From NCBI GenBank assembly GCA_015066045.1, contig SVPD01000011.1, positions 1 through 56,235 of the forward strand: DNA of 56,235 bases. Reading direction: 5' to 3'. The stretch is from Oscillospiraceae bacterium. Lineage in GTDB: Bacteria > Bacillota > Clostridia > Oscillospirales > Acutalibacteraceae. Positions 9,376 through 35,860 of this stretch are shown in pieces (the first letter of the stretch is position 1; every line of letters begins with the position of its first letter). A program made the position numbers and the translations under genes. Under the pieces are notes generated by a model. The model did not search any database. It was not told where the DNA came from and saw nothing but the letters and a program-made list of their open reading frames with translations.

Positions 9376-10208
9376 CCTTTTGCCCCCTTATCAAGCTTAT
9401 TATGCATCTTTTTCTCCCCTCTGACCTGTGAAACATTCAGCAGAATGAGAAGGAAAAGTATAGCCACGAAAATAAGAGTGGAGAGAGCGTACATATCGGG
9501 TGTAACTCTCTTTTTCGTCATAGAGAAAATGCGGATGGGCAGTGTTTCGAAGGACGGGCCCTGAGTAAAGTAGGAGATAACGAAATCGTCCAGTGAAAGA
9601 GTAAAGGACATCATCAGTCCCGAAAAAATACCCGTAGAAATAGAGGGCAGTATTACCTTGAAAAAGGCCTGCAGAGGTGTGCAGCCCAGATCCATGGCCG
9701 CCTCGGGAAGAAAGCGGTCAAGCTGACGGAGTTTCGGAAGCACCGAAAGAATAACATAGGGCAGATTAAAGGTAATATGAGCAATAAGCATAGTGCCGAA
9801 GCCGAGGGCGTCAGTGACACCCACCAGATTGGCACAGATAATGAAAAGAAGCATCATAGAAATACCCGTAACGATTTCCGGATTCATCATCGGAATATTG
9901 GTTACGCCCATAGTAGCCTTTTTGATGTGCTTATTTTTAAAAGCATTTATTCCCACTGCTGCCGCAGTACCCATCACCGTAGCAAAAAGAGACGATGTCA
10001 CTGCCAGAATAAGAGTATTTCTCAGCGCCGTAATGGTAGCCTGATCATAGAGAAGAGACTTGTACCAGCGAAGAGAAAAGCCGGTAATAACGCTGGTGCT
10101 GGCCGAATCATTGAAAGAAAAGAAAATCATAACAACGATAGGGGCATAGAGAAGGAGCATTATAAAGGCCACATAAAGTTTGGAAAGAGGCGACATTTTC
10201 ATTCTCAT
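9372..10208 (-). CDS. potC: Spermidine/putrescine ABC transporter permease
   Basis: 278 residues with six predicted membrane segments and the binding-protein-dependent transport (EAA) loop EAAMDLGCTPLQAFFKVILPSI, which docks on the ATPase. The N-terminus (LYVAFIMLLLYAPIVVMIFFSF) is typical of PotC. It forms the membrane channel with PotB. Four-base overlaps with potB upstream and potD downstream show translational coupling. Confidence 0.93.
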   Translation of the reverse strand: MRMKMSPLSKLYVAFIMLLLYAPIVVMIFFSFNDSASTSVITGFSLRWYKSLLYDQATITALRNTLILAVTSSLFATVMGTAAAVGINAFKNKHIKKATMGVTNIPMMNPEIVTGISMMLLFIICANLVGVTDALGFGTMLIAHITFNLPYVILSVLPKLRQLDRFLPEAAMDLGCTPLQAFFKVILPSISTGIFSGLMMSFTLSLDDFVISYFTQGPSFETLPIRIFSMTKKRVTPDMYALSTLIFVAILFLLILLNVSQVRGEKKMHNKLDKGAKG

Positions 10209-11032
10209 ATCAGCACACCTCCGTCATCATCTTCACCCGTAAAGCGGTTCATTACCATCATACAGACAATGATAAGCACCATAAGCACCAAGGAAAGTGA
10301 AGCACCTAAATTATAGTTGTTTGCACTCTTAAACTGCATTTCGATAACGTCACCGATAAGCGAGAAGGTGTTTCCGCCCAGCTTTTTCGAAATGTAGAAG
10401 GTAGAAACAGAGGGTACAAAGACCATAGTAAAGCCCGAAGCAATGCCGGGAAGACTCAGCGGCAGAACAATGTTTCTGAAAACGGTTATCTTGTTAGCAC
10501 CGAGATCCTCTGCAGCCTCGATAAGGTTATGGTCCATTTTCGCCATAATGGAATACAGGGGCAGAATCATATAAGGAATATAGTTATAAACCATACCCAG
10601 CACCACGGCACCCTGTGTGTTAATCATATGAACAGGCTCTATATTCAGCTTTTCGAGGAAGGAATTTATGATACCCGTGTCCTGCATAAGAATCATCATA
10701 GAATAGGTCCTTATAAGCAGATTCATCCACATAGGAAGCATAACGAGCATCATCATCGTTCTCTGCACATTGGCGGTGCTGCGTGCCATAATGTAAGCCA
10801 GAGGATATGCCAGAACGAGGCTTATGACCGTAGCGATGAAGCCCAGCCATATAGAATTCAGCATAACATCCTTATATTTACCCATTTCGCTCACATACTC
10901 GAGGGTAAAATTGCCGTTTGCATCAAAGAAAGAATAATAAACGACTATTATGAGCGGCACGATAATGAATATTCCTGCCCATACGAGATAAGGGGAAGCA
11001 ATAAGCTTTTTCGTAAGAGAGGTTTTTGCCAT
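10205..11032 (-). CDS. potB: Spermidine/putrescine ABC transporter permease
   Basis: 275 residues, six predicted membrane segments, with the EAA loop EAAEDLGANKITVFRNIVLPLS. The N-terminus (SPYLVWAGIFIIVPLIIVVYYSF) is PotB-like. It pairs with PotC as the heterodimeric channel. It starts 3 bases after the potA stop. Confidence 0.93.
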   Translation of the reverse strand: MAKTSLTKKLIASPYLVWAGIFIIVPLIIVVYYSFFDANGNFTLEYVSEMGKYKDVMLNSIWLGFIATVISLVLAYPLAYIMARSTANVQRTMMMLVMLPMWMNLLIRTYSMMILMQDTGIINSFLEKLNIEPVHMINTQGAVVLGMVYNYIPYMILPLYSIMAKMDHNLIEAAEDLGANKITVFRNIVLPLSLPGIASGFTMVFVPSVSTFYISKKLGGNTFSLIGDVIEMQFKSANNYNLGASLSLVLMVLIIVCMMVMNRFTGEDDDGGVLI

Positions 11033-11035
11033 TTA

Positions 11036-12160
11036 TCACTCCTCCTCTTCCGTAATGTCAGAAAGATGCTCGATTTCATCACTGAAGGAGCTGTAGTCAC
11101 CGAACATACCCGAATATTCACTCTTTTTCATTACGTGAATGGCATCCGGCTCGATCTGAATACCGATACGTGTGCCTACGGGATAGTAATCGGTGGTCTG
11201 TATCATCCATTTGAAGTTATCGATGTCTACAATCATTTCAAAATGTACACCCTTGAAGGTGTTTGAGGTGATAACACCGCTTATGGTTCCCTCCTCTACG
11301 GGGACCACGTCCACGTCCTCGGGACGGACAACTATATCGACAGACTCATTGACGGCAAAGCCTTTATCGAGGCACTGGAAAACTGCACCTGAAAACTTAG
11401 CCTTGAAGTCATTGAGCATAATTCCGTCAAGAATGTTACTTTCGCCGATGAAATCTGCTACGAAAGCGTTTTTCGGCTCATTATAAATGTCGATAGGTGT
11501 GCCTATCTGCTGAATTTTACCGCCGTTCATAACTACGACAGTATCACTCATGGAAAGAGCCTCCTGCTGGTCGTGGGTAACATAGATAAAGGTGATACCC
11601 ATTCTCTTCTGAATATTCTTAAGCTCGACCTGCATATCCTTTCTCAGCTTAAGGTCAAGAGCACCTAAGGGCTCATCAAGCAGAAGCACTCTGGGCTCTA
11701 CTGCCAAAGCACGTGCGATGGCGACTCTCTGCTGCTGACCGCCGGAAAGAGAAGCGATGTTCCTTTTCTGAAAGCCTTTAAGGTTCACAAGCTCAAGCAT
11801 TTCGTGTACCTTTTTGCTGATATCCTTTTCCTTCATTTTCTTGATACGAAGGCCGAATGCAATATTGTCATATACATTAAGATGAGGAAAAAGAGCATAT
11901 CTCTGAAAAATAGTATTTACCTGTCTTTTATGAGGCGGAAGATTGTTTATATCCTTTCCCTCGAAAAGCACCTGACCGCTGTCGGACTCCAAAAAGCCTG
12001 CGATTATACGCAAGGTAGTAGTCTTGCCGCAGCCGGAGGGGCCGAGAAAGGTCATAAACTCTTTATCTTTTATAGACAGATTGATGTTATCGAGAATAAC
12101 ATCATCTTCAAATTTTTTGGAAATATTCTGAAGTTTGATAATTACATTATCTTCCATCAT
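11036..12160 (-). CDS. potA: Polyamine-importing ATPase
   Basis: 374 residues from the ATG at 12160, which has AAAGGGG 7 bases upstream; the frame stays open further but without a ribosome site and into the promoter leader. Walker [11 protein letters not shown]-loop [10 protein letters not shown], signature [15 protein letters not shown] and Walker B LLLDEP are all present, and a TOBE domain occupies the last 120 residues. It drives uptake through PotBC. First gene of potABCD, with a TTGACA-17-TATATT promoter about 75 bases upstream. Confidence 0.95.
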
Positions 12161-12241
12161 TATTAAACCCCTTTCCCTTGCAATTATGAGGAGAAATCCC
12201 CCCATTATCCCAGAATAAACAATATATTCTGTATAAGACAC

Positions 12242-12270
12242 AATATAAAACATTTTTTAGCAAATGTCAA
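12242..12270 (-). promoter_or_regulatory. Promoter of potABCD
   Basis: TTGACA (12270-12265), 17 bases, TATATT (12247-12242) on the minus strand. Confidence 0.8.
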
Positions 12271-13689: not shown

Positions 13690-14430
13690 TTATACTGTGA
13701 CAGATGAGCTATAGCTGAGATTATATTGTGAGCCCGACTGATTTTTTACTATACCGGTGGGAATGGTAAAGGATACCACATCACCCGAATTTACGGACTG
13801 CTCGGGAACGGTGATTTTGATTTCATAAATACCGTTACTTTTTTTAGAGGGTACAGAGCAGGTAGCCGATGTAGCCAAAGCGGTGCCGTTTACCTTGATA
13901 GAAATATTCTGACTGGCAGCAGCAAAGTTTCCGTCCCAGTTTGAGGGATCGACCTCCACATAAATGACGCCTCCGCCGTAGCCGTAGGAATTTACGATCA
14001 GTGTAACGGGCTCAGCATCTTTATTTGTGGTTTCCTTTTCGCTTTTGGTGGTGCCGGAGGGCTTCTGAGTAGTGGTAGCGGGAGCTACAGAGGTATTTAC
14101 GTTAGGCTTCTGGATTTCACCTACATTAAAGGAGATATCATAATCGGAGGAGCCTGCATTCTGAGTGGGGATATTTGTAAGGTTATCAGTACCGACCTCG
14201 GTAAACTCAAATCTGGTAGTAGATGCCCAGGGTGCCGTCTGTCCCGTCTGTGTGGTGAGAATATAAGACGCTTCAGCGGTAGATGGCTCTGTGGTGGTAG
14301 GCTCTGTGACAGGAGCATACTGAGTGCCTATAGGTGCCGTAGTAGTAACTTCGTCTCCGTTCTTGCCGCAGGCAACTGCCACTGCCATTATAATAGCAAG
14401 CACTAAAAAAACTGCAGTAATTTTACGCAA
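13690..14430 (-). CDS. Secreted Thr-rich lipoprotein with C-terminal beta domain
   Basis: 246 residues, start TTG at 14430 with AGGAGG 8 bases upstream. The signal peptide ends in AVAVAC, a probable lipobox with the acylated Cys at 21. A low-complexity Thr/Pro/Ser linker follows (TTTAPIGTQYAPVTEPTTTE, ATTTQKPSGTTKSEKETTN). The last 110 residues are a beta-rich domain (TLIVNSYGYGGGVIYVEVDP, SIKVNGTALAT) that looks Ig-like. It is a cell-surface protein tethered by a flexible stalk; ligand unknown. It has its own TTGACT-17-TATAAT promoter. Confidence 0.7.
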   Translation of the reverse strand: MRKITAVFLVLAIIMAVAVACGKNGDEVTTTAPIGTQYAPVTEPTTTEPSTAEASYILTTQTGQTAPWASTTRFEFTEVGTDNLTNIPTQNAGSSDYDISFNVGEIQKPNVNTSVAPATTTQKPSGTTKSEKETTNKDAEPVTLIVNSYGYGGGVIYVEVDPSNWDGNFAAASQNISIKVNGTALATSATCSVPSKKSNGIYEIKITVPEQSVNSGDVVSFTIPTGIVKNQSGSQYNLSYSSSVTV

Positions 14431-14465
14431 TTCCGACGCCTCCTAAAAATAAAATAAATCAATTA

Positions 14466-14494
14466 ATTATACTATTAAAGAAAGTAAAAGTCAA
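14466..14494 (-). promoter_or_regulatory. Promoter of the Thr-rich lipoprotein
   Basis: TTGACT (14494-14489), 17 bases, TATAAT (14471-14466) on the minus strand. Confidence 0.75.
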
Positions 14495-14506
14495 CTCAAC
14501 AAAGTG

Positions 14507-15115
14507 TTAATTTTTCACGGCGTTGAAGTTATTTTTTATATATTTTGCACCCTCTGCTTTAATTTTTGTTAAAATATTATCCCTGAGGATTAATTCATTC
14601 ATCTCGGCTATTTTATTTTTGTTAAAGGAAATTTCTTCGTTTTCCTCGTCATACATACCGTAGATATCCTTAAGCTTAAGTGCGAAATCGCCCATTCCTA
14701 TCATATCAAGAGCGGGAAGAATTCTGCTTTTTACTATTTTTCCGTTTTCGGAAAAGAATGTCCTGACATCGCCGTCGGCACAGAAAACATCCAGAACATA
14801 AAGCTTCTGCTTTTCTTCACCGAGAAGCTCAAAGGCCTTTTCGGGCTCTTCCTGCTTCTGCAGTCTGAGCTGATAAGAAAGTGCCACACCCTCGAGAAGC
14901 TCGCCTTCGTCGGCAGAAGCGAGGGTTTCCTCGGTAAAATTCATATATCTTTCCTTAAGAGCGAGAAGACGCTTCATCTCTGCCTCCTGAGCCCTGTAAA
15001 GAGCGTTATGCTTCGAATAGGCTCTGACAGCGAAATAAAAAATCACTGCCGCCAGAATGCAGACACCTGCAAAAACAAAAAGCAGATAGCCGTGCTGAGA
15101 TAACCATTCCTTCAT
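14507..15115 (-). CDS. Single-pass membrane protein of unknown function
   Basis: 202 residues. One N-terminal membrane segment (YLLFVFAGVCILAAVIFYFAV, about residues 10-30) is followed by a charged, largely helical cytoplasmic part with a coiled-coil-like stretch (YRAQEAEMKRLLALKERYMNF). The ATG at 15115 follows AAAGGA. It comes 27 bases after rsmI on the same strand, so it is probably the third gene of the trmN6-like/rsmI transcript. I do not recognise the family. Confidence 0.6.
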   Translation of the reverse strand: MKEWLSQHGYLLFVFAGVCILAAVIFYFAVRAYSKHNALYRAQEAEMKRLLALKERYMNFTEETLASADEGELLEGVALSYQLRLQKQEEPEKAFELLGEEKQKLYVLDVFCADGDVRTFFSENGKIVKSRILPALDMIGMGDFALKLKDIYGMYDEENEEISFNKNKIAEMNELILRDNILTKIKAEGAKYIKNNFNAVKN

Positions 15116-15142
15116 TATTTTTACATTCCTTTCGATGTAATA

Positions 15143-15961
15143 TTACTGCAGAGCCTTATAGATGTCTCCCTTTTTTATGCCTGTTTCCTTGGCAGCCTGC
15201 TTAGCCGCCATAGAAGCACCCATACCCTCATCCATAAACCTTCTGGCGAGAACAAGAGCATCGTCAAGGGTTATTTCGCTTTCCTCTTCCTCTTTTTTAC
15301 CTTCAATAACGAGCACTATTTCGCCCTTGAGAGAATTGTCGGCATATTTTTCTGCAGCGAGAGCAAGAGTAGTCTTGATAACATCCTCGTGAATTTTAGT
15401 GATTTCTCTGACTATGGTAATTTCTCTGTCGCCCAAGGTCTCGTATAAATCCTTTAATGTGGCGGCAAGCTTATGGGGTGCCTCATAGAAAACCATAGTC
15501 CTTTTTTCGTCACGCACCGAGGCAAGATGCTCTCTTCTGCTCTGCTTATTCATACTGAGGAAGCCCTCAAAGGTAAATCTGCCCACATTCATTCCCGAAA
15601 GAGCGAGAGCCGCCACAAAGGCAGAGGGACCGGGCACCACGCTTACCTTCACTCCCCTTTCGTGACAGAGAGCCACGAGGTCCTCACCGGGATCGGACAC
15701 TGCAGGCATACCCGCATCAGTGATTACGGCACAGACCTCACCGCTGAGAATACGGCCAACGATAATCTCGCCCTTTTCTCTGCGGTTATGCTCGAAATAG
15801 CTTATCATAGGCTTTTTTATGCCGAAGTGATTTAAAAGCTTAAGGCTTACTCTGGTATCCTCGGCAGCTATGAAATCAACCTTTTCCAGAGTTTCGAGAG
15901 CACGTGGAGATATATCGCCCAAATTTCCTATAGGAGTGCCGACTACATATAGCATACTCAT
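15143..15961 (-). CDS. rsmI: 16S rRNA (cytidine1402-2'-O)-methyltransferase
   Basis: 272 residues, the usual RsmI length. The tetrapyrrole-methylase fold shows VVGTPIGNLGDISPRALETL at the N-terminus, AAEDTRVSLKLLNHF, AVITDAGMPAVSDPG for SAM binding, and VPGPSAFVAALALSG. It 2'-O-methylates C1402 in the decoding centre of 16S rRNA together with RsmH. It lies 15 bases after the trmN6-like gene, a pairing conserved in Firmicutes (yabB-yazA-yabC region). Confidence 0.95.
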   Translation of the reverse strand: MSMLYVVGTPIGNLGDISPRALETLEKVDFIAAEDTRVSLKLLNHFGIKKPMISYFEHNRREKGEIIVGRILSGEVCAVITDAGMPAVSDPGEDLVALCHERGVKVSVVPGPSAFVAALALSGMNVGRFTFEGFLSMNKQSRREHLASVRDEKRTMVFYEAPHKLAATLKDLYETLGDREITIVREITKIHEDVIKTTLALAAEKYADNSLKGEIVLVIEGKKEEEESEITLDDALVLARRFMDEGMGASMAAKQAAKETGIKKGDIYKALQ

Positions 15962-15976
15962 TTTAATTTTACCACC

Positions 15977-16720
15977 TTACTGATGTCCGTCCATATAATC
16001 ACCGAACATACTTCTGAATTCGTCCGTATTGGTTCCGTCACTGTTTTTCATAATCAGGTCAGGCATTACGGTAACACCGCTTTTACCTCCCTTTTTACCC
16101 TCTACGAGCACAAGCCACGGTGCTTTACCCTCAGTCTGCTTTACAAAACGGATTTTCTTGACCTCGACGCCTCCGCTTCGCATACTTACGATAATATCGC
16201 AGAGCCTTTCGGGGCGGTGACACATACAGAAGCGGCCGCCGTATTTCAGAAGCCTCGATGCAGCGGCTACGGCATTATCCACCGTGCAGGTAACCTCGTG
16301 TCGGGCTATCCGCTCCGCCTCGCTGACGCTTTCGATGCCCGTGCCCACGGGCTTATAAGGCGGATTCATGGTAACAAGGTCAAAAACACCCGCTTCCATT
16401 ACGCCCTTGAGGGAGCGGAGATCACAGTTGACCGGTACTATTCTGTCACCGAGACCGTTATGCAGCAGAGACTTATTCACCTGTTCGATAGCCTTCGGCT
16501 GGATATCCAGAGCATAAACTTTATTCGTTTCACCCTTACACCATATGAGCGGGATAATTCCGCAGCCTGTTCCCATATCACAGGCAAGGTCTTTTCTTTT
16601 TATTGAAGCAAAATCAGCAAGGAGAATGGCATCCGTACCGAAGGTATGTGACGGAGACACGACTATCTCCATATTATTTCCTAAGGGCTCGATTTTTTCA
16701 TCCGGAGCAAGATTAATCAT
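15977..16720 (-). CDS. tRNA1(Val) (adenine37-N6)-methyltransferase-like protein
   Basis: 247 residues from the ATG at 16720, 7 bases after AAGGAG; an ATG two codons earlier overlaps the spacer. The SAM-binding motif DMGTGCGIIPLIW and the N6-adenine catalytic motif NPPY (TMNPPYKPVGTG) are intact, as in TrmN6/YabB. It methylates N6 of an adenine, by family precedent A37 of a tRNA. It is first in a transcript with rsmI, under a TTGCCT-17-TATAAT promoter with an extended -10. Confidence 0.88.
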   Translation of the reverse strand: MINLAPDEKIEPLGNNMEIVVSPSHTFGTDAILLADFASIKRKDLACDMGTGCGIIPLIWCKGETNKVYALDIQPKAIEQVNKSLLHNGLGDRIVPVNCDLRSLKGVMEAGVFDLVTMNPPYKPVGTGIESVSEAERIARHEVTCTVDNAVAAASRLLKYGGRFCMCHRPERLCDIIVSMRSGGVEVKKIRFVKQTEGKAPWLVLVEGKKGGKSGVTVMPDLIMKNSDGTNTDEFRSMFGDYMDGHQ

Positions 16721-16752
16721 AAGCATTCTCCTTTCTTTTGCACACTTTTTTT

Positions 16753-16781
16753 ATTATAACACAGATAACGCTAAAAGGCAA
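16753..16781 (-). promoter_or_regulatory. Promoter of the trmN6-like/rsmI transcript
   Basis: TTGCCT (16781-16776), 17 bases ending in TGT, TATAAT (16758-16753) on the minus strand. Confidence 0.7.
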
Positions 16782-16803
16782 GGCTGAGAAAAGCACAAAA
16801 AAA

Positions 16804-16823
16804 CTGCCCACATATGTGAGCAG
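16804..16823 (-). terminator. Terminator of the C/A/T cassette
   Basis: CTGC-T-CACATATGTG-G-GCAG stem on the minus strand followed by a run of T. Confidence 0.7.
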
Positions 16824-16831
16824 CTCTTTTA

Positions 16832-17062
16832 TCAGTCTTCCATATACTTCTGGATGATTTTGATAGCATCGCCGAGAGTTTCGAGATTGCCGACCTCACG
16901 GTCAGGTATCTCTACATCAAATTCGTCCTCGATAGCTACAGCGATATTGATAAGCTCAAGTGAGTTAAGACCGAGCTCGCTTCTGATGTTTGTGTCTTCC
17001 GTTAGCTTTTCGGGATCAATGGAAACATAACGGCAGATAACTTCTCTGATTCTGTCAAGCAT
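16832..17062 (-). CDS. Free-standing acyl/peptidyl carrier protein
   Basis: 76 residues from the ATG at 17062 (AAAGGAGG 8 bases upstream; the longer in-frame start has no ribosome site). The 4'-phosphopantetheine site is the Ser of LGLNSLELINIAVAIEDEF, and the acidic helix II is typical of ACPs. It is the last gene of a cassette with a condensation-like protein and an AMP-dependent ligase, so it most likely carries the acyl or aminoacyl group activated by the ligase. It is not in a fatty-acid synthesis (fab) cluster, so a dedicated carrier is more likely than the housekeeping AcpP. Confidence 0.88.
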   Translation of the reverse strand: MLDRIREVICRYVSIDPEKLTEDTNIRSELGLNSLELINIAVAIEDEFDVEIPDREVGNLETLGDAIKIIQKYMED

Positions 17063-17113
17063 AGTTTCATCCTCCTTTAAAAATAATTCTTTTATATAAT
17101 ATACCAAAAATAA

Positions 17114-18877
17114 TTATTTTGCAATAGTTTTTGTATATCTGTCGATAACTTTTTGTCTGATAACCTTTCTGGTGGAGTTCTTTTCAAACTCATCAAAGGA
17201 TACATATACATTCTGTACCTTTCTGTAAGCGGGCTGACCTTTGTTTGATGCGGCTACATCAGCCTTTGTTTTTTCGATGATTTCCTCATCGGTCATACCC
17301 TTGAGCTTATTTTTATCCACATAAATAGCCGCAGACATTACCACATTTTCTCTGCCGAGAATTTCTACCTTTTCTTCGAAGGCAACAACCTCAACGGCAT
17401 AAAGAAGATTTTCCATAATATTGCTTTCTACGGTTTCAGGGAAGATGTTTTCTCCGTTAGGAAGAATAATGAGGAATTTCTTTCTGCCGGTGATGTAAAG
17501 CTCTCCGTCCTCGTCTACTCTGCCGTAGTCGCCTGTTTTAAACCAGCCGTCCTCGGTAAAGGAAGCCTTGGTAGCCTCTTCATCCTTATAGTAGCCCTGA
17601 GTAACATTGTCACCTCTGACCTGAATTTCACCGATGCCCTCTTCATCGGGATCGTCAATTCTGAACTGTGCTCTGGGGAAGGCCTTACCTGCGCAGAGAG
17701 GCTTCTTTCTGCCGTTTTTATGAAGAGTGATGGTGGGAGATGCCTCTGTCATACCGTAGCCGGAAATGATGTTAAAGCCGAGCTCGGAAAGGTTTTTGAT
17801 ATGGTCTGCTCTGGCAGGTGCGCCGCCGCAGGACATGGTGGGGAACTGTCCTCCGAAGTTTTCCTTGATCTGCTTGAAAACGATGGGACGGATGTCGATA
17901 CCGATTTCGAGAAGCTTGTTGCTTACCTTGATAGCCTTACGCATTACATCTGCCTTACCGCTTGCCTCAGCCTTAGCCCAAATGCCGTTATAAATGGCCT
18001 CCAGAACGAGAGGAACGACTGCCATGGCAGTAGGCTTGAAGTCATTGATATTGGGAAGGATGTTCTTAAGGCTGTCATTGATGTAAATGACACCGTACAT
18101 ATAGATAGCCGTAAGAATACTGCAGGAAAGCTCATAAACGTGGTTCATGGGGAGAATGGACATAGTGGACTGCTCAGGTCCGAGGAACTCGAGAAGACCG
18201 TCCACATTGGATGCAAAATTAAAATGAGTGAGCATAACACCCTTGTTTGTGCCCGTGGTGCCCGATGTGAACACGATAGCAGCGAGCATATCGCCTGTGA
18301 TTTCCTTATCGATAAAGCGTCTGTCGCCTGCTTCCACGAGCTTTTTACCCATTTCTGCCAGCTCATCGACCGTAAGGAATTTGCCGCCCTCGGCCTTTGC
18401 GCCGGGAGTCATATTAAAGCAATACTGGCAACGCTCATCCTGCTCCGTATGAAGCTTTGCGGTTTCCTTATAGTTTTTACTGTGACAGAGAGCTACTGCG
18501 TCACCCTTTGAGATAAGCATACTGATATCCTTGTCAGAAAGCTCCTTATCGATGGGCACTGCTACACCGCCACCGCATACGATAGCGTAAAACATTACAA
18601 TCCAGCTATAGGAGTTTTCACTGACTATAGCAATATGCTTACCGCCCAGACCGATTTCATAAAGAGCAGTACCTACATATCTTACTCTGTCATGAAACTC
18701 TTTAACTGTGTAGCAAACATCCTGCTTCTTAATCTTTTCCACTACGGCAATTCTGTCACCGAAGGCCTCACTTCTTACAAACATTTCCTTGATTGTAGAG
18801 CAGGGGCCCATATTGTGGAGCTTAGTTCTGAGTTTTGCTATTTCTTTCTTTTCTTTTTTACTGTGCTGAATGGTCAT
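17114..18877 (-). CDS. AMP-dependent acyl/aminoacyl ligase (adenylation enzyme)
   Basis: 587 residues of the ANL superfamily. The nucleotide loop FTSGTTGTNKG is at 203-213, GYGMTE at 373-378, the TGD hinge motif at 448-450, GRKK at 464-467 and the catalytic Lys in STRKVIR at 571. The closest look is to long-chain acyl-CoA synthetases (FadD type), but the neighbouring carrier protein suggests loading onto a phosphopantetheine arm rather than CoA. It activates a carboxylate as acyl-AMP; the substrate is unknown, with a fatty acid favoured by the FadD-like N-terminus. It lies 43 bases after the condensation gene and 51 before the carrier gene. Confidence 0.85.
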   Translation of the reverse strand: MTIQHSKKEKKEIAKLRTKLHNMGPCSTIKEMFVRSEAFGDRIAVVEKIKKQDVCYTVKEFHDRVRYVGTALYEIGLGGKHIAIVSENSYSWIVMFYAIVCGGGVAVPIDKELSDKDISMLISKGDAVALCHSKNYKETAKLHTEQDERCQYCFNMTPGAKAEGGKFLTVDELAEMGKKLVEAGDRRFIDKEITGDMLAAIVFTSGTTGTNKGVMLTHFNFASNVDGLLEFLGPEQSTMSILPMNHVYELSCSILTAIYMYGVIYINDSLKNILPNINDFKPTAMAVVPLVLEAIYNGIWAKAEASGKADVMRKAIKVSNKLLEIGIDIRPIVFKQIKENFGGQFPTMSCGGAPARADHIKNLSELGFNIISGYGMTEASPTITLHKNGRKKPLCAGKAFPRAQFRIDDPDEEGIGEIQVRGDNVTQGYYKDEEATKASFTEDGWFKTGDYGRVDEDGELYITGRKKFLIILPNGENIFPETVESNIMENLLYAVEVVAFEEKVEILGRENVVMSAAIYVDKNKLKGMTDEEIIEKTKADVAASNKGQPAYRKVQNVYVSFDEFEKNSTRKVIRQKVIDRYTKTIAK

Positions 18878-18920
18878 TTCTGAGTCTCCTTAAAAGTTTT
18901 TTCTGTTTCTTTAGTATATA

Positions 18921-20315
18921 TTATTCCAGGCACATATCGAGAAGCTCACCGACGGTGATATCGGGATTTTCGATACCTGTAAGAATAACCTTGAGTGCAT
19001 TTTCGTGAAGAGCCTGTATCTGCTCTTTATTTGAAAGCTTCACTCTGTACATATAGTTAAGGTTAAAGCCCTTATCACGGGGATCAGTGGAGCAGATAAC
19101 ATAAAGAGGTGTGAAATATCTGCCGAGGTCATAGGTCCTGAAATCGAGCTTAAGTCCGTGGTCACCAAGGTCAAAGGGAACGGGAATCCACGAGAACATA
19201 AGGCAGGCCGGCCCCTGAATAAGGCCGTAATTAAACATATCTCTGGACATATCACGTGCGGTGATATAGGGATATTCGGAGTGCCTGTAAAGCTGGGTTC
19301 TGACATTGGTATATTCATCCACGCCCTGACGGAAGGTTTTATCCTCACTGATGATGGTACGTACCTGAATAGGCTGAGCGAGACATCCGCTCATATTCTT
19401 TTCCTTGATGGTAGAGCGTTTAGAGCAGGTAGCCATCATAAATACATCCTCTGTACGGTAGTTGATGGCGGAAGCGTGGCAGCGAAGACCGAACATAAAG
19501 AGGCTTTCGGGTGCGATACTGTTTTCGATACAGAAGTTAAGTATCTTTTCTGCGTCCTCTGTGCAGATATGATTGCTTATCATATTACATTTGTCATAGA
19601 TAGGATTATATGCTGCGGGAACACGGAGATTGGGATCCTTTTTCTTCTTTCTCATCTTTTCGAGGAAGGCAGGACCGTGAACGCCTGCATAGAAGGGCTC
19701 ACCGCCCTTTGCAAAATACTCTCTGTAGAATTTCTCGTGCTTTTTCTGCTTCTTTTCGTTGGTTATACGAACGAGCTCCTCCTGTATGTATTCCTCATAG
19801 GAATCAAGAGGCTTAGGCATTTCAGCACCGTAACAGAGATGTCTGTAGACAGAAATAAGGTCCATATAGAATATCATCGATCCGAGTGCATCCATATTAA
19901 GATGACTTACATTAAAGTAAATGCCGTTTGTTCCGTTTGCATTTTTAAAGAAGTAAATTCTGAAGCATTCGTCCTTAAGGAAATAAACAGGCTTCTGTGC
20001 ATCTGCGGCAATAAACTCCTCCTGCTGCTTTTCGTCGCGGAAATACTTACAGGGAACCTTATTCATTCTGAAGGACGGAAGAAAATACTGCTTGATCTGC
20101 TTGTCTACCTTTTTAAATCTCAGACGAAGCGAATCGTTTCTTTCAAATTCGATGTTAAGTGCTTTCGTAAGAATGTCGAAATCCATATCCTTATCAACGG
20201 CAAAGGATGTGGGTATCTGAGTAAGCTGCTTACTGAAGCTGTACTTAACCATAAGATACATTGTCTGCTGAGACGGTATCAGATCATAATATTTTTCCGG
20301 TGTGTATTTTTTCAC
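18921..20315 (-). CDS. Free-standing condensation-domain-like acyltransferase
   Basis: 464 residues, the size of one NRPS condensation domain. The N-terminus DLIPSQQTMYLM resembles core motif C1. The active-site region NVSHLNMDALG (135-145) keeps the catalytic His138 and Asp142 of HHxxxDG but has Ser for the first His and Ala for the Gly. The second half (DVFMMATCSKRSTIKEKNMSGCLAQPIQVR) matches the latch/floor region of C domains. It should join an acyl group on the carrier protein to an amine or alcohol acceptor. First gene of the cassette, with its own promoter at 20380-20352. Confidence 0.75.
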   Translation of the reverse strand: MKKYTPEKYYDLIPSQQTMYLMVKYSFSKQLTQIPTSFAVDKDMDFDILTKALNIEFERNDSLRLRFKKVDKQIKQYFLPSFRMNKVPCKYFRDEKQQEEFIAADAQKPVYFLKDECFRIYFFKNANGTNGIYFNVSHLNMDALGSMIFYMDLISVYRHLCYGAEMPKPLDSYEEYIQEELVRITNEKKQKKHEKFYREYFAKGGEPFYAGVHGPAFLEKMRKKKKDPNLRVPAAYNPIYDKCNMISNHICTEDAEKILNFCIENSIAPESLFMFGLRCHASAINYRTEDVFMMATCSKRSTIKEKNMSGCLAQPIQVRTIISEDKTFRQGVDEYTNVRTQLYRHSEYPYITARDMSRDMFNYGLIQGPACLMFSWIPVPFDLGDHGLKLDFRTYDLGRYFTPLYVICSTDPRDKGFNLNYMYRVKLSNKEQIQALHENALKVILTGIENPDITVGELLDMCLE

Positions 20316-20351
20316 AACTACACTCTCCTTCCGATTTTTTCTAACTTAATA

Positions 20352-20380
20352 ATGATACCAAAAAGCAAATAAAAAGTCAA
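20352..20380 (-). promoter_or_regulatory. Promoter of the C/A/T cassette
   Basis: TTGACT (20380-20375), 17 bases, TATCAT (20357-20352) on the minus strand, 37 bases before the start codon. Confidence 0.7.
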
Positions 20381-20490
20381 TGAAAAACCGTTAAATAAAG
20401 TTACACTTTGTCAGAAATACATCATCGTGATGCAAAATATAAAATCCGTTCTTCCTAAATGTTAACTATTTGTTACAGAACGCAAAAAAA

Positions 20491-20513
20491 GCTACCGGTA
20501 TTTAACCGGTAGC
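20491..20513 (-). terminator. Terminator of the sporulation/division operon
   Basis: Perfect 9-bp stem GCTACCGGT/ACCGGTAGC with a 5-base loop and a T-run on the minus strand; it closes the long transcript ending in the S1 protein gene. Confidence 0.85.
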
Positions 20514-20520
20514 ATAATAT

Positions 20521-20973
20521 TCAGCTTCTGCCTGAGCCACGGCGTGAATAACCGCCGCCGTGCTTTGAGTCGGAATTTCTCTTAAGGTCTGTCATTTTCT
20601 CGTCACTGACCTGCTTAAAGCGTGCCATCATATCCTCGAAGGACATAGCCTCTTTATTCTGTTTGGGCTGCCCCTGCCAGACATTGGCACGTGCAGGCTT
20701 TTCAGTTTTACGGGGAGGACGTGAATTTTCCCTTTTGGGTGCTTCCTCTGCCTTTCTGATGGAAAGACTGATTTTTCCCTCTTCGGAAATGCTCACAATC
20801 TTTACCTTTACTGTCTGACCTTCCTTCAGAAACTCCTTTATGTCCTTAACGAAACCGTTTGATACCTCGGAAATATGTACCATACCGCTTTTACCGTCGG
20901 GAAGACTTACAAAAGCTCCGAAGGCTGTGAGACCTGTTACTTTACCCTCTAAAACTGCGCCAACTTCAAGCAT
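20521..20973 (-). CDS. yabR: S1-domain RNA-binding protein (YabR-like)
   Basis: 150 residues. One S1 domain covers about residues 1-72 (VGAVLEGKVTGLTAFGAFVSL, GMVHISEVSNGFV, KVKIVSISEEGKISLSIRKA). The basic, disordered tail ends KHGGGYSRRGSGRS. It binds RNA, probably on ribosomes. Its place after divIC matches yabR of B. subtilis, which supports the name. Confidence 0.87.
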   Translation of the reverse strand: MLEVGAVLEGKVTGLTAFGAFVSLPDGKSGMVHISEVSNGFVKDIKEFLKEGQTVKVKIVSISEEGKISLSIRKAEEAPKRENSRPPRKTEKPARANVWQGQPKQNKEAMSFEDMMARFKQVSDEKMTDLKRNSDSKHGGGYSRRGSGRS

Positions 20974-21009
20974 AAAAAGACTGAATCCTCCTAAAAATAT
21001 ACATCCGGC

Positions 21010-21336
21010 TTACTCGCCGTAAGATGAATTATAATATACCTTTTCGCCCGGCTTACAATAGCCGTACTCTTCTCTGGCGATTTTTTCAAAATATGCCTGA
21101 TGGTTTTCTTCCTTCAAGGTTTCGGAAATTTCAGAGCTTTCCTCGCTTACAGACACTGCAAGAGCCTCGAGCTCAGCTGCCTCACGGTTATACTCTGCTG
21201 CACGGGCATAGTTAGACACACACTGCGAAACAAGTAACACGGTCATAACTGCAGCGACGAAAATCATTAATATATGAACTTTTTTGATTTCTCTTTTTTT
21301 AGCTTTTCTGGCTTCACTGAAGTTCCTGACTGCCAA
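21010..21336 (-). CDS. divIC: Septum formation initiator, DivIC/FtsB family
   Basis: 108 residues from a TTG at 21336, 6 bases after AAGGGGTGG; the ATG further up has no site. A basic cytoplasmic N-terminus (SEARKAKKREIKK), one membrane segment (ILMIFVAAVMTVLLVSQCVS) and an external coiled coil (EYNREAAELEALAVSVSEES) are followed by the family ending AREEYGYCKPGEKVYY. It works in the FtsL-FtsQ-DivIC divisome complex. It sits between yabQ and yabR as in B. subtilis. Confidence 0.85.
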   Translation of the reverse strand: MAVRNFSEARKAKKREIKKVHILMIFVAAVMTVLLVSQCVSNYARAAEYNREAAELEALAVSVSEESSEISETLKEENHQAYFEKIAREEYGYCKPGEKVYYNSSYGE

Positions 21337-21391
21337 GCAAATCCACCCCTTAAAAATCTCAGCGCATAAATTAAAATACACCCATCCATAA

Positions 21392-21895
21392 TTATACAGA
21401 TTTGTTTTTATTTTTCAAGAGGATTTTGGCAATAATACAAAAATTTTTCTGATTTTTTTCTTTATTTTTCATCTCTGACAGCTTTTTTTCGAGCCTGCGG
21501 AAAATCCTGCCCGAAAAATCACGTAAATGCTCCGCCGTTTTGATAAAAGGTCTTGCCAAAAAAGCGAAAAAATTCCTCACGCAGGCAAGATAAGCCGCAT
21601 ACCGCCCCAGTATATATCTGCCCAGTGAAAAATGAAAGGCCACACCTCCGACAAGCTCGGCGAGTATGATATTAAGCCTCACCTGCCCCGAATTATAAAT
21701 AACCATAAAGAAAAAGGAAAGGAGCGATGCCATAAGAAAATAAAGGGTGTCAAAGAAAACATAAACACCCTTTCTCTCACCGAAAAGCATACGCACGGCG
21801 CACACGGCACCGTAAAGCAGGCCGAGAAGTATTCCGCAGCCCAGAGCTCTGCAGAAAACCACTATCTGACTGACAAGAGGCTCGGAATAATTCAT
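21392..21895 (-). CDS. yabQ: Spore cortex biosynthesis protein YabQ
   Basis: 167 residues with three to four membrane segments in the first 100 residues (VSQIVVFCRALGCGILLGLLYG, FFDTLYFLMASLLSFFFMVI) and a basic tail (EKKLSEMKNKEKNQK). By homology it acts in the forespore outer membrane in cortex synthesis. Its start overlaps the yabP stop by 4 bases. Confidence 0.85.
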   Translation of the reverse strand: MNYSEPLVSQIVVFCRALGCGILLGLLYGAVCAVRMLFGERKGVYVFFDTLYFLMASLLSFFFMVIYNSGQVRLNIILAELVGGVAFHFSLGRYILGRYAAYLACVRNFFAFLARPFIKTAEHLRDFSGRIFRRLEKKLSEMKNKEKNQKNFCIIAKILLKNKNKSV

Positions 21896-22167
21896 CTGAA
21901 CACCTTTGAAAAAAAGGAAGTGCTGCGCGGCTGATTATCCAGATAAACCAGAGAGGACACTGTGCCGTCTATGGAAAGCTCACCTGTGTCTGTGTTAAGC
22001 ACACTGATATGCAGTCCCTCCCCCTTTACCGTCAGCTCACCGTAATCGGTGTAGGCGGTTATAAGATTTTCGTCAAAGGAATCTACATCGGTAACTCCGC
22101 TTAAGGTAAGCTGATTCCTGTCCTTAAGAATAAGACTGTGGGGCATTTTGATTTTATTTTCGGTCAT
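21892..22167 (-). CDS. yabP: Sporulation protein YabP
   Basis: 91 residues, beta-rich (MPHSLILKDRNQLTLSGVTDVDSFDE, ELSIDGTVSSLVYLDN), matching YabP, which works with YabQ in spore cortex formation. The Shine-Dalgarno AAGGAGG lies 7 bases before the ATG but inside the 3' arm of a terminator-like hairpin (see 22175-22206). It is coupled to yabQ by a 4-base overlap. Confidence 0.88.
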   Translation of the reverse strand: MTENKIKMPHSLILKDRNQLTLSGVTDVDSFDENLITAYTDYGELTVKGEGLHISVLNTDTGELSIDGTVSSLVYLDNQPRSTSFFSKVFR

Positions 22168-22174
22168 AAAAAAA

Positions 22175-22206
22175 CCTCCTTCGGAAAAAGTTTATTCCGA
22201 AAGGAG
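22175..22206 (-). promoter_or_regulatory. Terminator-like hairpin that sequesters the yabP ribosome site
   Basis: On the minus strand CTCCTTTCGGAA pairs with TTCCGAAGGAG (one bulge) and is followed by G and seven T, then the yabP ATG. The 3' arm contains the only good ribosome site of yabP. The element can act as a terminator of the rqcP transcript, as a translational switch for yabPQ, or both. Confidence 0.6.
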
Positions 22207-22231
22207 ATTTATTATTCTTCACAGGTGCTTA

Positions 22232-22471
22232 TCACAGTATTTCGTACATAAGACCTGCATCGTTTTTAGTAGCGTGCTCCGTAACGATAAGCACACGGGC
22301 CTTAAGAAGGTTTTCGCCCATCTGTATTTCGATTACATCGCCGACCTTCACATCATAGGAGGCTCTGGCGACCTTACCGTTTACCGTCACATGCTTGGCA
22401 TCACACACCTCGTTTGCGATAGTTCTGCGCTTTATAAGGCGTGACACCTTAAGATATTTGTCGAGTCTCAT
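22232..22471 (-). CDS. rqcP: S4-domain ribosome quality-control protein
   Basis: 79 residues from the ATG at 22471, 5 bases after AGGTGG. An S4 RNA-binding domain covers nearly all of it (MRLDKYLKVSRLIKRRTIANEVCD, HVTVNGKVARASYDVKVGD). By homology (YabO/RqcP, Hsp15-like) it binds obstructed 50S subunits and helps RqcH add alanine tails. The mazG-(hup)-rqcP-yabP-yabQ order matches the B. subtilis block. Confidence 0.88.
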   Translation of the reverse strand: MRLDKYLKVSRLIKRRTIANEVCDAKHVTVNGKVARASYDVKVGDVIEIQMGENLLKARVLIVTEHATKNDAGLMYEIL

Positions 22472-22491
22472 TTTTACCACCTAAAAATTCA

Positions 22492-22513
22492 GGACTGCTC
22501 CGAAGAACAGTCC
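22492..22513 (-). terminator. Terminator after hup
   Basis: GGACTG/CAGTCC stem with a 10-base loop; a T-rich tract follows on the minus strand. It overlaps the rqcP leader and may be partly read through. Confidence 0.55.
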
Positions 22514-22531
22514 GAATAAGCTGAAATTTAA

Positions 22532-22804
22532 TTATTTTACAGCGTTCTTAAGAGCTGCGCCTGCCTTAAAGGAAGGAATCTTAGCTGCTGCGATCTCGAT
22601 GGATTCGCCTGTTTTGGGGTTGTGGCCTGTTCTGGCTGCTCTTTCCTTAACTTCGAAGGTACCGAAGCCGATAAGCTGAACCTTGTCACCCTTAACGAGT
22701 GCTTCTTCGATGGAAGCGATAACTGCTGCAAGAGCCTTATCAGCGTCCTTCTTTGAGATTTCTGCCTTTGCTGCAACTGCATTAATTAATTCAGTTTTAT
22801 TCAT
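22532..22804 (-). CDS. hup: HU-family DNA-binding protein
   Basis: 90 residues from the ATG at 22804 after GGAGG. The text [25 protein letters not shown] is a standard HU N-terminus, and the arm ([21 protein letters not shown]) carries the RxGRNPxTG-like motif with an intact Pro. It compacts and bends DNA in the nucleoid. It is inserted between mazG and rqcP, a position seen in Clostridia but not in B. subtilis. Confidence 0.95.
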
Positions 22805-22845
22805 TTTTGTTTTCCTCCAAAAATATGATTTATTTTTCCACGGGA

Positions 22846-23658
22846 TTAATCCCGATTGGATACTAAGTTTTTCTTCGCCTGAGCCCAAAGCTTGTCCAGC
22901 TCCTCGATAGCAGAGCTTTTCATATCGATGTTTTCTTCGGCGGCGAGCCTTTCTACCTCGAGAAAGCGGGTGATGAACTTTTCTGTAGAGAGATTGAGTG
23001 CTTCCTCGGCATCGACACCGATAAACCTCGCTACATTTACACAGGAGAAAAGGAGGTCACCGAATTCGTCGGTTACGCTCTCACTGTCACCTGATTTCAT
23101 CGCTTCCTTAAGCTCGGCAATTTCACTTTCAAGTGCTTCAAGGGCACCGCTAACCTCATCCCAATCAAAGCCGGCCTTTTTAGCCTTCTGCTGAATTTTC
23201 TGCGCTCTCATAAGTGCGGGAAGCTCTTTGGGAACCTTCAGCATAGATGAGCCCTGTGTTTTCTGCCCTTTGCTTTTACGCTTTATGTCGTCCCAGTTGC
23301 TGAGCACCTCGTCGGTGCCGCTAACCCTGACCTCGCCGAAAACATGGGGATGACGCTCGATGAGCTTTTTACAGATACCGTCACAGACATCTGAGAAATC
23401 AAAGGAGCCGATTTCCTTTTCAATCTGGGCGTGAAAGACCACCTGTAAAAGCACGTCGCCGAGTTCTTCCTCGAGTAAGTCTTTATCTTTTTTATTGATA
23501 GCCTCTATGACCTCATAGGTTTCCTCGATGAAATCCTTTTTTATGCTTTCGTGAGTCTGCTCAGCGTCCCAGGGACATCCTCCGGGAGAACGAAGCACAG
23601 CCATAATCGAAAGCAGGTCATCTATGGTATATTTATCCTTGAAAGTAAAATTTTCCAT
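22846..23658 (-). CDS. mazG: Nucleoside triphosphate pyrophosphohydrolase MazG
   Basis: 270 residues with two MazG repeats. The first has [26 protein letters not shown] and [15 protein letters not shown] with the EExxE...EExxD metal ligands; the second has [11 protein letters not shown] and [15 protein letters not shown]. It hydrolyses NTPs to NMPs, cleaning damaged nucleotides and possibly lowering ppGpp precursors. It lacks the N-terminal SAM-dependent methylase domain of B. subtilis YabN. It follows the flippase gene by 24 bases. Confidence 0.94.
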
Positions 23659-23682
23659 TTTCTTTACCTCATTGCTCCTATT

Positions 23683-25452
23683 TTAACCTAATAATCCAAA
23701 TTTTGCAAGGACTTTTGCAATTTTTTCTCCTTTTGGAAGCATTTCTATGTCATCTTTTACAATTCCTTTAAGTAAAAGTATAGAAATTGCATAAAAACCT
23801 GCGCCTACGCCCACTGCTAAAAGGGTAGTAAGGCGGCTTTCGATGGAGAGAACGTCCACTAAAAGGTAGTTTGCACCCCATGCACCTACGCCGCACATCA
23901 GGGCTGCGAGGAAGGGCTTAAGAAATACGGAGACAAGATTAAGCTTCACATCCACGGTTCGGGTAAGGATGTTATAGTTTATAAGCACCATCACGATGTA
24001 GCAAACCGTAGAGCTGATACAGGCACCCTTGATATTGATTTCGGGATTGGCAATCATTATAAAATTAAGTGCTATTTTTATAACGGCACCTATGGACATA
24101 GTCACGATGGGCACCTTGGTTTTGCCTACTGCCTGAAGCATATTCGTCAGAGGTGATGCCATGGCAAAAAGAGGTAATGCCAGACCGTAGACGAACATCA
24201 TCGGTGCGGCGGCAGGAGCAAACTCCGGATTATTTCCGCCGTAAAGCAGGTCAAGAATAGGCTCTGAGAGAACTGCTATACCGATACCGGCAGGCATAGC
24301 GATAAGCATAGCCACACGGATGGCTGACTCTACGCAAAGCTTGATTTCACCTTTATTTTTAGCGGTCCACGCTTTGGAAAGAACGGGAATGGCACTGATG
24401 CCGAGAGTAAGCGTGATAGTAGGAATAAGGTTTTTGATATTGATTACGGAGCCGTGCATACCGTAAAGATAGGTGGAGATATTTTCATCCAGAGTCTGCG
24501 AAACGGCAAGAGTATCCCCATACATAGTCTTGATGGTGTCGAGACCGTTTTCCAGAGCGTAAACGAGTCTGCTTCTGATGGTAACATCGTCGATAAGATT
24601 GCTCACATTCAAAACCAGAGAGGATGCCGCAACAGGTACGGAAATGCGAAGAATGCTTTTAAGGATAGATTTATCGCTATCAGCCTCGGGAGAATTAACC
24701 AGCTCCTCACGGGTAAAGCCGAAGCCCTTTTTCTTATATCTTATGAAAAGATACACAAGTCCGAAGGCAGAGCCCAGAGTAACGCCTAAAATAGCCACGG
24801 CAGCACCGTAGGGATAAATAGCCGCCATAGCCTCAGCCTTATTGGTTACGTCCACACCGAAAAGCGTCATAGCACCGTTTACTGCATTTTCCTCGTAATA
24901 GGAAATGGCTCCGTTCATAAAGACATAGGTAGCCGAAAGGCCGAAAATAAGCTTGACCGCAGCCTCGATAACCTGAGAAACTCCCGTGGGTGTCATATTG
25001 TTAAGTCCCTCGTAATAGCCTCTGAAGGAGGACATCATGCAGCAGAAGAGCACACAGGGAGCTACGGCGAGAACGCTTATGTAATTCATAGGAGCCTTAG
25101 CGGAATAAACGGAATACGGCACTGCTATGGCCATAAGCACCAATGTACCCACTAAGCCCACGAGGAAAAACAGCTTACGTGAAACTTTAAAAATAGCCTT
25201 GGCATCCCTTACTCTGCCAAGCTCCATATTCTGCGATACGAGCTTGGACACTGCCACGGGAAGTCCCGCCATAGAAATAGCATAAAGAGGCGTGTAAACG
25301 GCATAAGCACCCGTGAAATAGCCGTAGCCCTCGGTACCGAGAAGGTTATTCATGGGAATCTTATAAACCGCTCCGATTAATTTAACGACTATCGTAGCTA
25401 TAGCAAGCACGCCCGCACCCGCAAGCAAGGACTGTCTTTTTCTTTCAGCCAT
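23683..25452 (-). CDS. SpoVB-like polysaccharide/lipid flippase (MOP superfamily)
   Basis: 589 residues with about 14 membrane segments. The N-terminus (SLLAGAGVLAIATIVVKLIGAVYKIPMNNLLGTEGYGYF) is typical of SpoVB/MurJ-type exporters. It probably moves lipid-linked peptidoglycan or cortex precursors across the membrane. Its place before mazG matches yabM in B. subtilis, which supports a role in cortex or wall synthesis rather than drug efflux. Confidence 0.85.
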   Translation of the reverse strand: MAERKRQSLLAGAGVLAIATIVVKLIGAVYKIPMNNLLGTEGYGYFTGAYAVYTPLYAISMAGLPVAVSKLVSQNMELGRVRDAKAIFKVSRKLFFLVGLVGTLVLMAIAVPYSVYSAKAPMNYISVLAVAPCVLFCCMMSSFRGYYEGLNNMTPTGVSQVIEAAVKLIFGLSATYVFMNGAISYYEENAVNGAMTLFGVDVTNKAEAMAAIYPYGAAVAILGVTLGSAFGLVYLFIRYKKKGFGFTREELVNSPEADSDKSILKSILRISVPVAASSLVLNVSNLIDDVTIRSRLVYALENGLDTIKTMYGDTLAVSQTLDENISTYLYGMHGSVINIKNLIPTITLTLGISAIPVLSKAWTAKNKGEIKLCVESAIRVAMLIAMPAGIGIAVLSEPILDLLYGGNNPEFAPAAAPMMFVYGLALPLFAMASPLTNMLQAVGKTKVPIVTMSIGAVIKIALNFIMIANPEINIKGACISSTVCYIVMVLINYNILTRTVDVKLNLVSVFLKPFLAALMCGVGAWGANYLLVDVLSIESRLTTLLAVGVGAGFYAISILLLKGIVKDDIEMLPKGEKIAKVLAKFGLLG

Positions 25453-35843: not shown

Positions 35844-35860
35844 TTTTATTCTCCTTTGTA

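Follow-up and report, generated by a model that had tools for sequence, protein, structure and literature searches.

The 56,235-nucleotide stretch of contig SVPD01000011.1 analysed here (the window; Oscillospiraceae bacterium, family Acutalibacteraceae, assembly GCA_015066045.1) carries on its minus strand three adjacent genes, for a free-standing condensation protein (C), an acyl-adenylating ligase (A) and an acyl carrier protein (CP), and we consider this trio to be probably a variant of the fatty-acid-amide cassettes of gut Clostridia known as CTA operons, one that would join an acyl group carried on CP to a small nucleophile to give an N-acyl product. The reaction is proposed by analogy with OaaC, the amide-forming enzyme of Coprococcus eutactus (PMC13142362), while the three genes themselves, their recurrence as a unit, the selection acting on them and the homology between C and OaaC are observed here.

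Genes of the trio and proposed reaction

18921..20315, minus strand: condensation protein C, open reading frame (ORF) with a GTG start, 464 aa; PF00668 at 97.9 bits (cut-off 30.6)
17114..18877, minus strand: ligase A, FadD/ACSL-like and acyl-adenylating, ORF of 587 aa; PF00501 at 196.1 bits and PF23562 at 31.2 bits
16832..17062, minus strand: acyl carrier protein CP, 76 aa, read from an ATG that AAGGAGG precedes; serine in LGLNSLEL

The ORFs follow one another in the order C-A-CP, with 43 bases between C and A. Both Pfam matches of A (AMP-binding and AMP-binding_C_3) are above their cut-offs, and CP matches PF00550 (PP-binding) at 51.4 bits against a cut-off of 20.8, as scored on a 91-aa reading of the gene. 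The three adjacent genes described by an earlier, sequence-only reading of this DNA are thus present, each with a Pfam match above cut-off. The start of CP had to be revised: the 91-aa frame is a mechanical ORF from a TTG at 17107 that has no AAGGAGG-like site before it, and we replace it with the 76-aa protein from the ATG at 17062, a length common to many orthologues. The motif of C reads S137-H138-L-N-M-D142-A143, in which His138 and Asp142 would be the catalytic residues by homology. The genome holds four PF00668 matches, all in open frames of 447-518 aa, and no C domain of a multidomain nonribosomal peptide synthetase (NRPS) is found among these frames, as the sequence-only reading had said for its own view of the DNA. 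The fourth of these proteins lies on contig 54 (L070, 4923-6206; 427 aa, 37.1 bits) and was missed by the search with window C. No further gene lies between the two terminator-like stems that flank the trio, thioesterases elsewhere in the genome not having been searched for. One phosphopantetheinyl-transferase-like gene and three PF00550 carriers, CP among them, are encoded in the genome.

In the proposed reaction, A would adenylate a fatty or related carboxylic acid and attach it by a thioester bond to the phosphopantetheine arm that CP carries at the serine of LGLNS. C would then bind acyl-CP, with His138 as general base or orienting residue, and a small soluble nucleophile would attack the thioester and release the N-acyl product, a scheme for which an acceptor carrier and a thioesterase would be unneeded. 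An amine is the most likely nucleophile, as amines are what the characterised relative OaaC uses. Acid activation, carrier loading and condensation with a soluble nucleophile had already been suggested from the letters of the DNA; the suggestion is partly supported, in that it matches the mechanism of the nearest characterised relative, OaaC (PMC13142362).

Homology of C to OaaC and its place among condensation proteins

Among all PDB chain sequences, the only strong match of C is OaaC (12KH), with an E value of 4.4e-50 over residues 5-460 of 464, and the next is tyrocidine synthase 2, with an E value of 4.3e-5. OaaC, together with OaaA and OaaACP, leads to oleoyl aminovaleric acid; in vitro it forms amides when given acyl-ACP and a free amine, and oleoyl-CoA (CoA, coenzyme A) yielded no product. 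The enzyme is a homodimer that is dissociated by holo-ACP (PMC13142362). The two systems are alike in consisting of three stand-alone proteins, with a C homologous over nearly its full length, the second His and the Asp of the motif, an acyl carrier protein and no acceptor carrier. They differ in the motif, which is DHxxxDS in OaaC and SHxxxDA in window C, and in that window C belongs to a sister clade. NRPS C domains (tyrocidine synthase 2, VibH, rhizomide synthetase) are in the same family, PF00668, but their matches to C have E values of 4.3e-5 or weaker, and in place of the HHxxxDG in a multidomain protein that characterises an NRPS assembly line the window has SHLNMDA in a single-domain protein.

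We placed C in a tree of 115 C proteins, built by a quick method and rooted at its midpoint, for which a long-branch warning applies (L117 and L118 are among the long branches). It separates 96 free-standing rows from 19 NRPS C domains with support 100; within the free-standing part the window type forms a clade of 58 rows (support 100), and OaaC, the CTA rows, a protein from contig 39 of the window's genome and its counterparts in congeners form another of 37 rows (support 99), L118 joining the window side weakly (support 85). The tree omits L083, L179 and L180, in which C is incomplete, as well as G290 and one 342-aa stretch of the 20 NRPS stretches, and the 127 published fatty-acid-amide sequences and labelled starter C domains lie outside it. 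The phylogeny that had been proposed as a check sets the free-standing proteins apart from NRPS C domains, in a tree with no labelled starter C domain, and puts window C as sister to the OaaC/CTA group and not within it. A clade of window-type and CTA C proteins without the OaaC-like copies of the genus, L117 and L118 was rejected (approximately unbiased test, p-AU 0.0016), a result in which the CTA row L178 may weigh, as it groups with the copies of the genus. It follows from this rejection that the contig-39 protein, and not window C, is the genome's nearer relative of OaaC.

The motif follows the same division. His138 and Asp142 are kept in 58/58 window-clade rows, as the sequence-only reading had read them in C. 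The first motif position in the window subgroup (n=43) is Ser in 30 rows, Thr in 11 and Cys in 2, with Asp or His in none; it is His in 9, Ser in 5 and Ile in 1 of the 15 rows from loci with a second type of ligase, A2 (A2-C-CP), Asp in 15, His in 1 and Tyr in 1 of the 17 OaaC/CTA rows, Gln in 11, His in 7 and Asn in 1 of the 19 OaaC-like rows from the genus, and His in all 19 NRPS rows. The residue after the motif Asp is Ala in 43/43 window-subgroup rows, and Asn (9), Phe (5) or Ala (1) in the A2-C-CP rows. For the OaaC family the motif is given as (D/H)HxxxDS, the residue after Asp being Ser in 42%, Ala in 36% and Gly in 17% (PMC13142362). It had been suggested that the altered motif may mark a separate subfamily. 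The alteration is less unusual than it might seem, since Asp or His in first position and Ser or Ala after the Asp had been described and only the Ser, Thr or Cys in first position appears to go beyond that paper; the subfamily itself is supported by the sister clade and by its own motif, with one of these three residues first in 43/43 rows. Nine columns are shared by at least 85% of the 96 free-standing and fewer than 25% of the 19 NRPS rows, and all nine are present in window C (D152, P167, L218, P228, R278, N285, P378, Y405, T454). As the 96 rows were collected through their likeness to window C or OaaC, which are themselves among them, this signature characterises the group and is not independent proof.

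Other C/CAT-superfamily proteins make esters or thioesters, and C could in principle use an alcohol or thiol acceptor and form such a product and not an amide. We regard this as very unlikely. At its first motif position and just behind the Asp, C does differ from canonical C domains and from OaaC, and 19 further columns, which may or may not line the acceptor site, split the window clade from the OaaC clade; on the other side, the nearest characterised relative makes amides, and such motif variation is already reported among its kin (PMC13142362).

Conservation of the trio and selection on its genes

Related loci were read in stretches with some 5 kb of flanking sequence on either side, or less where the contig stops. 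Eighteen loci in 18 genomes carry the complete C-A-CP trio; they include the window and one locus that lies outside the genus but within the family. At 2 more the trio runs off the end of its contig. The window and L040 share the neighbourhood (S1-domain gene upstream, trmN downstream) and L039 shares its upstream side only; at L042, L044, L045, L047-L050, L058 and L061 a polar-amino-acid-type ATP-binding cassette (ABC) transporter lies upstream on the same strand, an assignment made by gene families, with Pfam and NCBIfam profiles run on L048 only and the permease absent from the gene table of L044. Since the surroundings differ among trio loci, the trio is kept while its neighbourhood is not. 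The earlier expectation that the three genes are conserved together thus holds for a large set of loci, and it fails for others in which the same C type has a different partner or none, as described below.

All three genes are under purifying selection. The ratio of nonsynonymous to synonymous substitution rates (dN/dS) is 0.030-0.060 for C and 0.015-0.023 for A between the window and L039-L041 (L039 being partial for A), and 0.016-0.023 for CP between the window and L040 and L041. With L045, which is more distant, the values are 0.134 for C, 0.067 for A and 0.040 for CP. These ratios are rough because dS is high (0.77-1.98). The carrier serine, read as intact from the sequence in the first place, is kept in 69/69 aligned carrier ORFs, a set with one or more duplicate stretches that also takes in the other carriers of this genome.

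This pattern bears on the possibility that A is an ordinary acyl-CoA ligase, with C and CP as relics or unrelated in function. The best NCBIfam models of A are indeed acyl-CoA ligases, all below cut-off (the best, a long-chain-fatty-acid--CoA ligase subfamily, at 221.5 bits against 476), and a 638-aa ligase from this genome, whose stretch shows no C gene, falls into its cluster in the ligase tree. However, dN/dS far below 1 for all three genes, a carrier serine and a motif His and Asp without exception in the rows aligned, and a trio complete at so many loci are hard to reconcile with relics, and we give this explanation almost no credence.

The ligase lineage and the relation to CTA cassettes

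In a ligase tree that omits rows outside 470-700 aa, plus all of L108 and L212, the ligases of CTA-type loci and the A2 ligases of the genus form one clade of 47 rows (support 96), and the trio ligases form another, with 18 trio rows and one lone ligase (support 100), which is closer to further ACSL-like ligases from the genus. Window A thus appears to belong to a distinct ligase lineage, and the simplest reading of the tree, which is not proven, is that it replaced an A2-type ligase. OaaA was compared through the ligases of CTA-type loci only, which lie apart from A, though not significantly so.

CTA operons of gut Lachnospiraceae were reportedly treated by Chang et al. in 2021. A preprint on Blautia wexlerae gives this name to trios of C, carrier and fatty-acid ligase in gut bacteria; it places the homologues found among 7,781 gut isolate genomes in 36 species, all Lachnospiraceae, with a cut-off that requires 70% identity across 80% of the protein. 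It finds the carrier between C and A in every CTA-bearing isolate, and it reports more acyl amines from two CTA-positive than from two CTA-negative Blautia species (PMC13060934). Window C, compared with OaaC, would fall short of that cut-off. The window trio resembles these operons in being a three-gene row in gut Clostridia that encodes C, a carrier and a fatty-acid ligase, with an OaaC-homologous C, an adenylating A, a serine-bearing carrier and the second His and the Asp of the motif. It departs from them in the first motif position, where Ser137 stands instead of Asp or His, and in gene order, its carrier being last, whereas the CTA-type loci that we read are C-CP-A in 17 of 18, the remaining one cut by a contig end. 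Because gene order and first motif residue differ and C lies in a sister clade, the trio is not a CTA cassette proper, and the lead towards gut-Clostridia fatty-acid amides given by the sequence-only reading, right in kind in view of the OaaC match, did not hold in that narrower sense.

Several further observations weigh against a function like that of OaaC. Window C is only 24% identical to OaaC, and the contig-39 protein of the same genome is nearer to it (32% versus 26% with OaaC as query); in the tree window C is grouped in the sister clade, not with the characterised enzyme. A lies outside the clade of CTA ligases, a single common clade not being rejected (p-AU 0.34), and could make CoA thioesters only. 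At 15 loci C is followed by CP without A in the stretch read. An AlphaFold2 model of C, made from four sequences 90-94% identical (window and L035-L037), was unusable, with a mean predicted local distance difference test score (pLDDT) of 38.9. Among the sources consulted, we found no known product for any sister-clade member; searches of the open-licence literature gave no description of the window lineage, and among the titles and abstract openings listed, one on the rumen gave no such cassette beyond PMC13142362 and one on Crohn's disease gave none.

As to purpose, CTA fatty-acid amides have host receptors as targets, GPR119 among them, and a proposed role of the operons in Blautia is to relieve fatty-acid toxicity (PMC13060934, PMC13142362). 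Host signalling, fatty-acid detoxification and a membrane aminolipid are candidate purposes for the window trio.

Other partners of the same condensation protein

The C type of the window is found with more than one set of partners. The C-CP loci without a ligase in the stretch are L051-L057, L059, L060, L062-L066 and L083 (with C cut in L083), and one genome of this group, G007, has a trio-type A elsewhere (L208). At 4 loci window-type C has none of the partners in the stretch. At 5 loci among the 58 window-clade rows a GH3 gene lies directly before C. One such pair is in the window's own genome (L068, contig 18, 156-3240), where the GH3 amido-synthetase gene, confirmed by Pfam, and a C 56% identical to window C form an apparent operon; the others are L071, L072, L073, in which GH3 is cut by the contig end, and L075. 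GH3 is also in the stretch at 3/15 C-CP loci (by Pfam for L062). A second cassette of the own genome (L069, contig 39, 163-5078) is arranged A2-C, and C is followed by a PF00550 carrier (contig 39:1876-2043), with an adjoining hydrolase-like gene; its C is the OaaC relative mentioned above.

An alpha/beta-hydrolase-like gene is present in the stretch at 14/15 C-CP loci, 1/20 trio loci, 2/5 GH3-C loci and 0/4 loci with C alone, and at 1/15 A2-C-CP, 1/19 OaaC-like loci of the genus and 0/18 CTA-type loci. The N-termini of these proteins read as signal-peptide-like, and Pfam, run on three members, gave no family above cut-off and at most a sub-threshold Abhydrolase_1. Single GH3 or hydrolase adjacencies could be due to chance, because both gene types are widespread: GH3 is in 33/34 genomes of the genus, and the window's genome has about 14 hydrolase-like paralogues (15 matches, two in one frame). 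The repeated adjacencies are less easily explained by chance, but the loci are interrelated and not independent.

These partners raise the question of whether the C lineage serves to make aminolipids of the membrane or surface (N-acyl amino acids or compounds like ornithine lipids), and not diffusible fatty-acid amides. In a planctomycete the GH3 protein OlsH and OlsI, an O-acyltransferase of the alpha/beta-hydrolase superfamily, make ornithine lipids (PMC12493201), and both gene types accompany the same C type in relatives of the window, GH3 in one case in its own genome. The window trio, however, has no adjoining GH3 or hydrolase, and GH3 is in the stretch at none of the 20 trio loci and the hydrolase at one; given the abundance of both gene types, some adjacency is expected. 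Moreover, the hydrolase is likened to OlsI by enzyme type only, a GH3 enzyme needs no C partner, and the main text of PMC12493201 does not contain the terms 'condensation' or 'acyl carrier protein'. We consider an aminolipid role unlikely for this lineage, and prefer the acyl-amide variant for the window trio.

A broader idea, speculative and in our estimate rather doubtful, is that the OaaC-like C of this one Clostridia genus is a general acyl-transfer module that was re-paired with different acyl suppliers, namely a FadD-like ligase with carrier, a CTA-type ligase with carrier, a carrier with hydrolase and no ligase, and GH3 without carrier. Between them these pairings may yield a series of aminolipids or acyl amides, the acyl groups coming from lipases at some loci. 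The chemistry of at least the GH3-C pair would be one that the literature searched describes for no condensation domain.

Distribution of the lineage

The search with window C covered 98 genomes: the window's own, 33 congeners, 26 others from the family and 38 others from the order. A match is present in 38 of these 98. Congeners match at 47% identity or more in 32 of 33 cases (one in pieces), the remaining one having only a 24% match, so that the lineage is present in 33/34 genomes of the genus. In the rest of the family 4/26 genomes match, at 49, 41, 41 and 21% identity, and in the rest of the order 0/38. Eight of the matches were listed without surroundings (G012:C153, G016:C75, G016:C39, G019:C13, G023:C50, G040:C35, G005:C67 and G006:C2), all but G019:C13 being partial or weak. 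In a draw of 391 genomes from the class, 69 have some match to window C, above 30% identity only in the window's own genome. With OaaC as query the same draw gave 19 loci outside the genus at 29-57% identity, the surroundings of 18 of which were read (G290 excluded), and the genomes with the nearest OaaC relatives belong to other orders of the class. A search of assembled contigs for related loci returned three closely similar copies, plus a short match of 35% in Parabacteroides. Three members of the genus are named records from goat and sheep hindgut.

Transcription signals and neighbouring genes

20352..20380, minus strand: promoter-like site before C, TTGACT-17-TATCAT with extended -10, 10/12
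20465-20436, minus strand: second promoter-like site before C, 10/12
16795..16832, minus strand: terminator-like hairpin with T run, directly after CP
20491..20513, minus strand: terminator-like hairpin upstream of the trio, separating it from the S1-domain gene

A single promoter for the trio had been proposed, and the site before C makes it plausible. It falls short of being shown, as the 13 promoter-like sites of the region are hardly above chance (8.9 +/- 3.1 in shuffles); terminator-like stems number 9 against 3.0 +/- 1.3. No Rfam family reached its gathering score in window positions 14000-24000, and a scan of five relative loci gave one tRNA and otherwise nothing. The neighbours of the trio are an S1-domain gene and a YabP gene upstream and a TrmN-like methyltransferase gene downstream, beyond which lies a gene that we take to be rsmI.

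On the same strand, 8155-12253 encodes a PotD/C/B/A-like spermidine/putrescine importer (the ATPase above its NCBIfam cut-off, the other subunits below), 4.6 kb from the trio. This importer and the ABC transporter beside sister trios are hints only of an imported amino acid or amine. Also on the minus strand, 35124-37132 encodes an alcohol-acetyltransferase-like protein with PF07247 above cut-off, Condensation below cut-off and the sequence YHALCDG; the protein after it matches zinc-ribbon and DUF6320 models below threshold.

Implications

If the product of the trio is an acyl amide, the makers of such compounds would extend beyond the Lachnospiraceae, where the CTA survey placed all of its homologues (PMC13060934). 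The lineage also forms a natural series, in which the same C type occurs with different partners and a different motif, for the choice of acyl group and amine in stand-alone condensation proteins.

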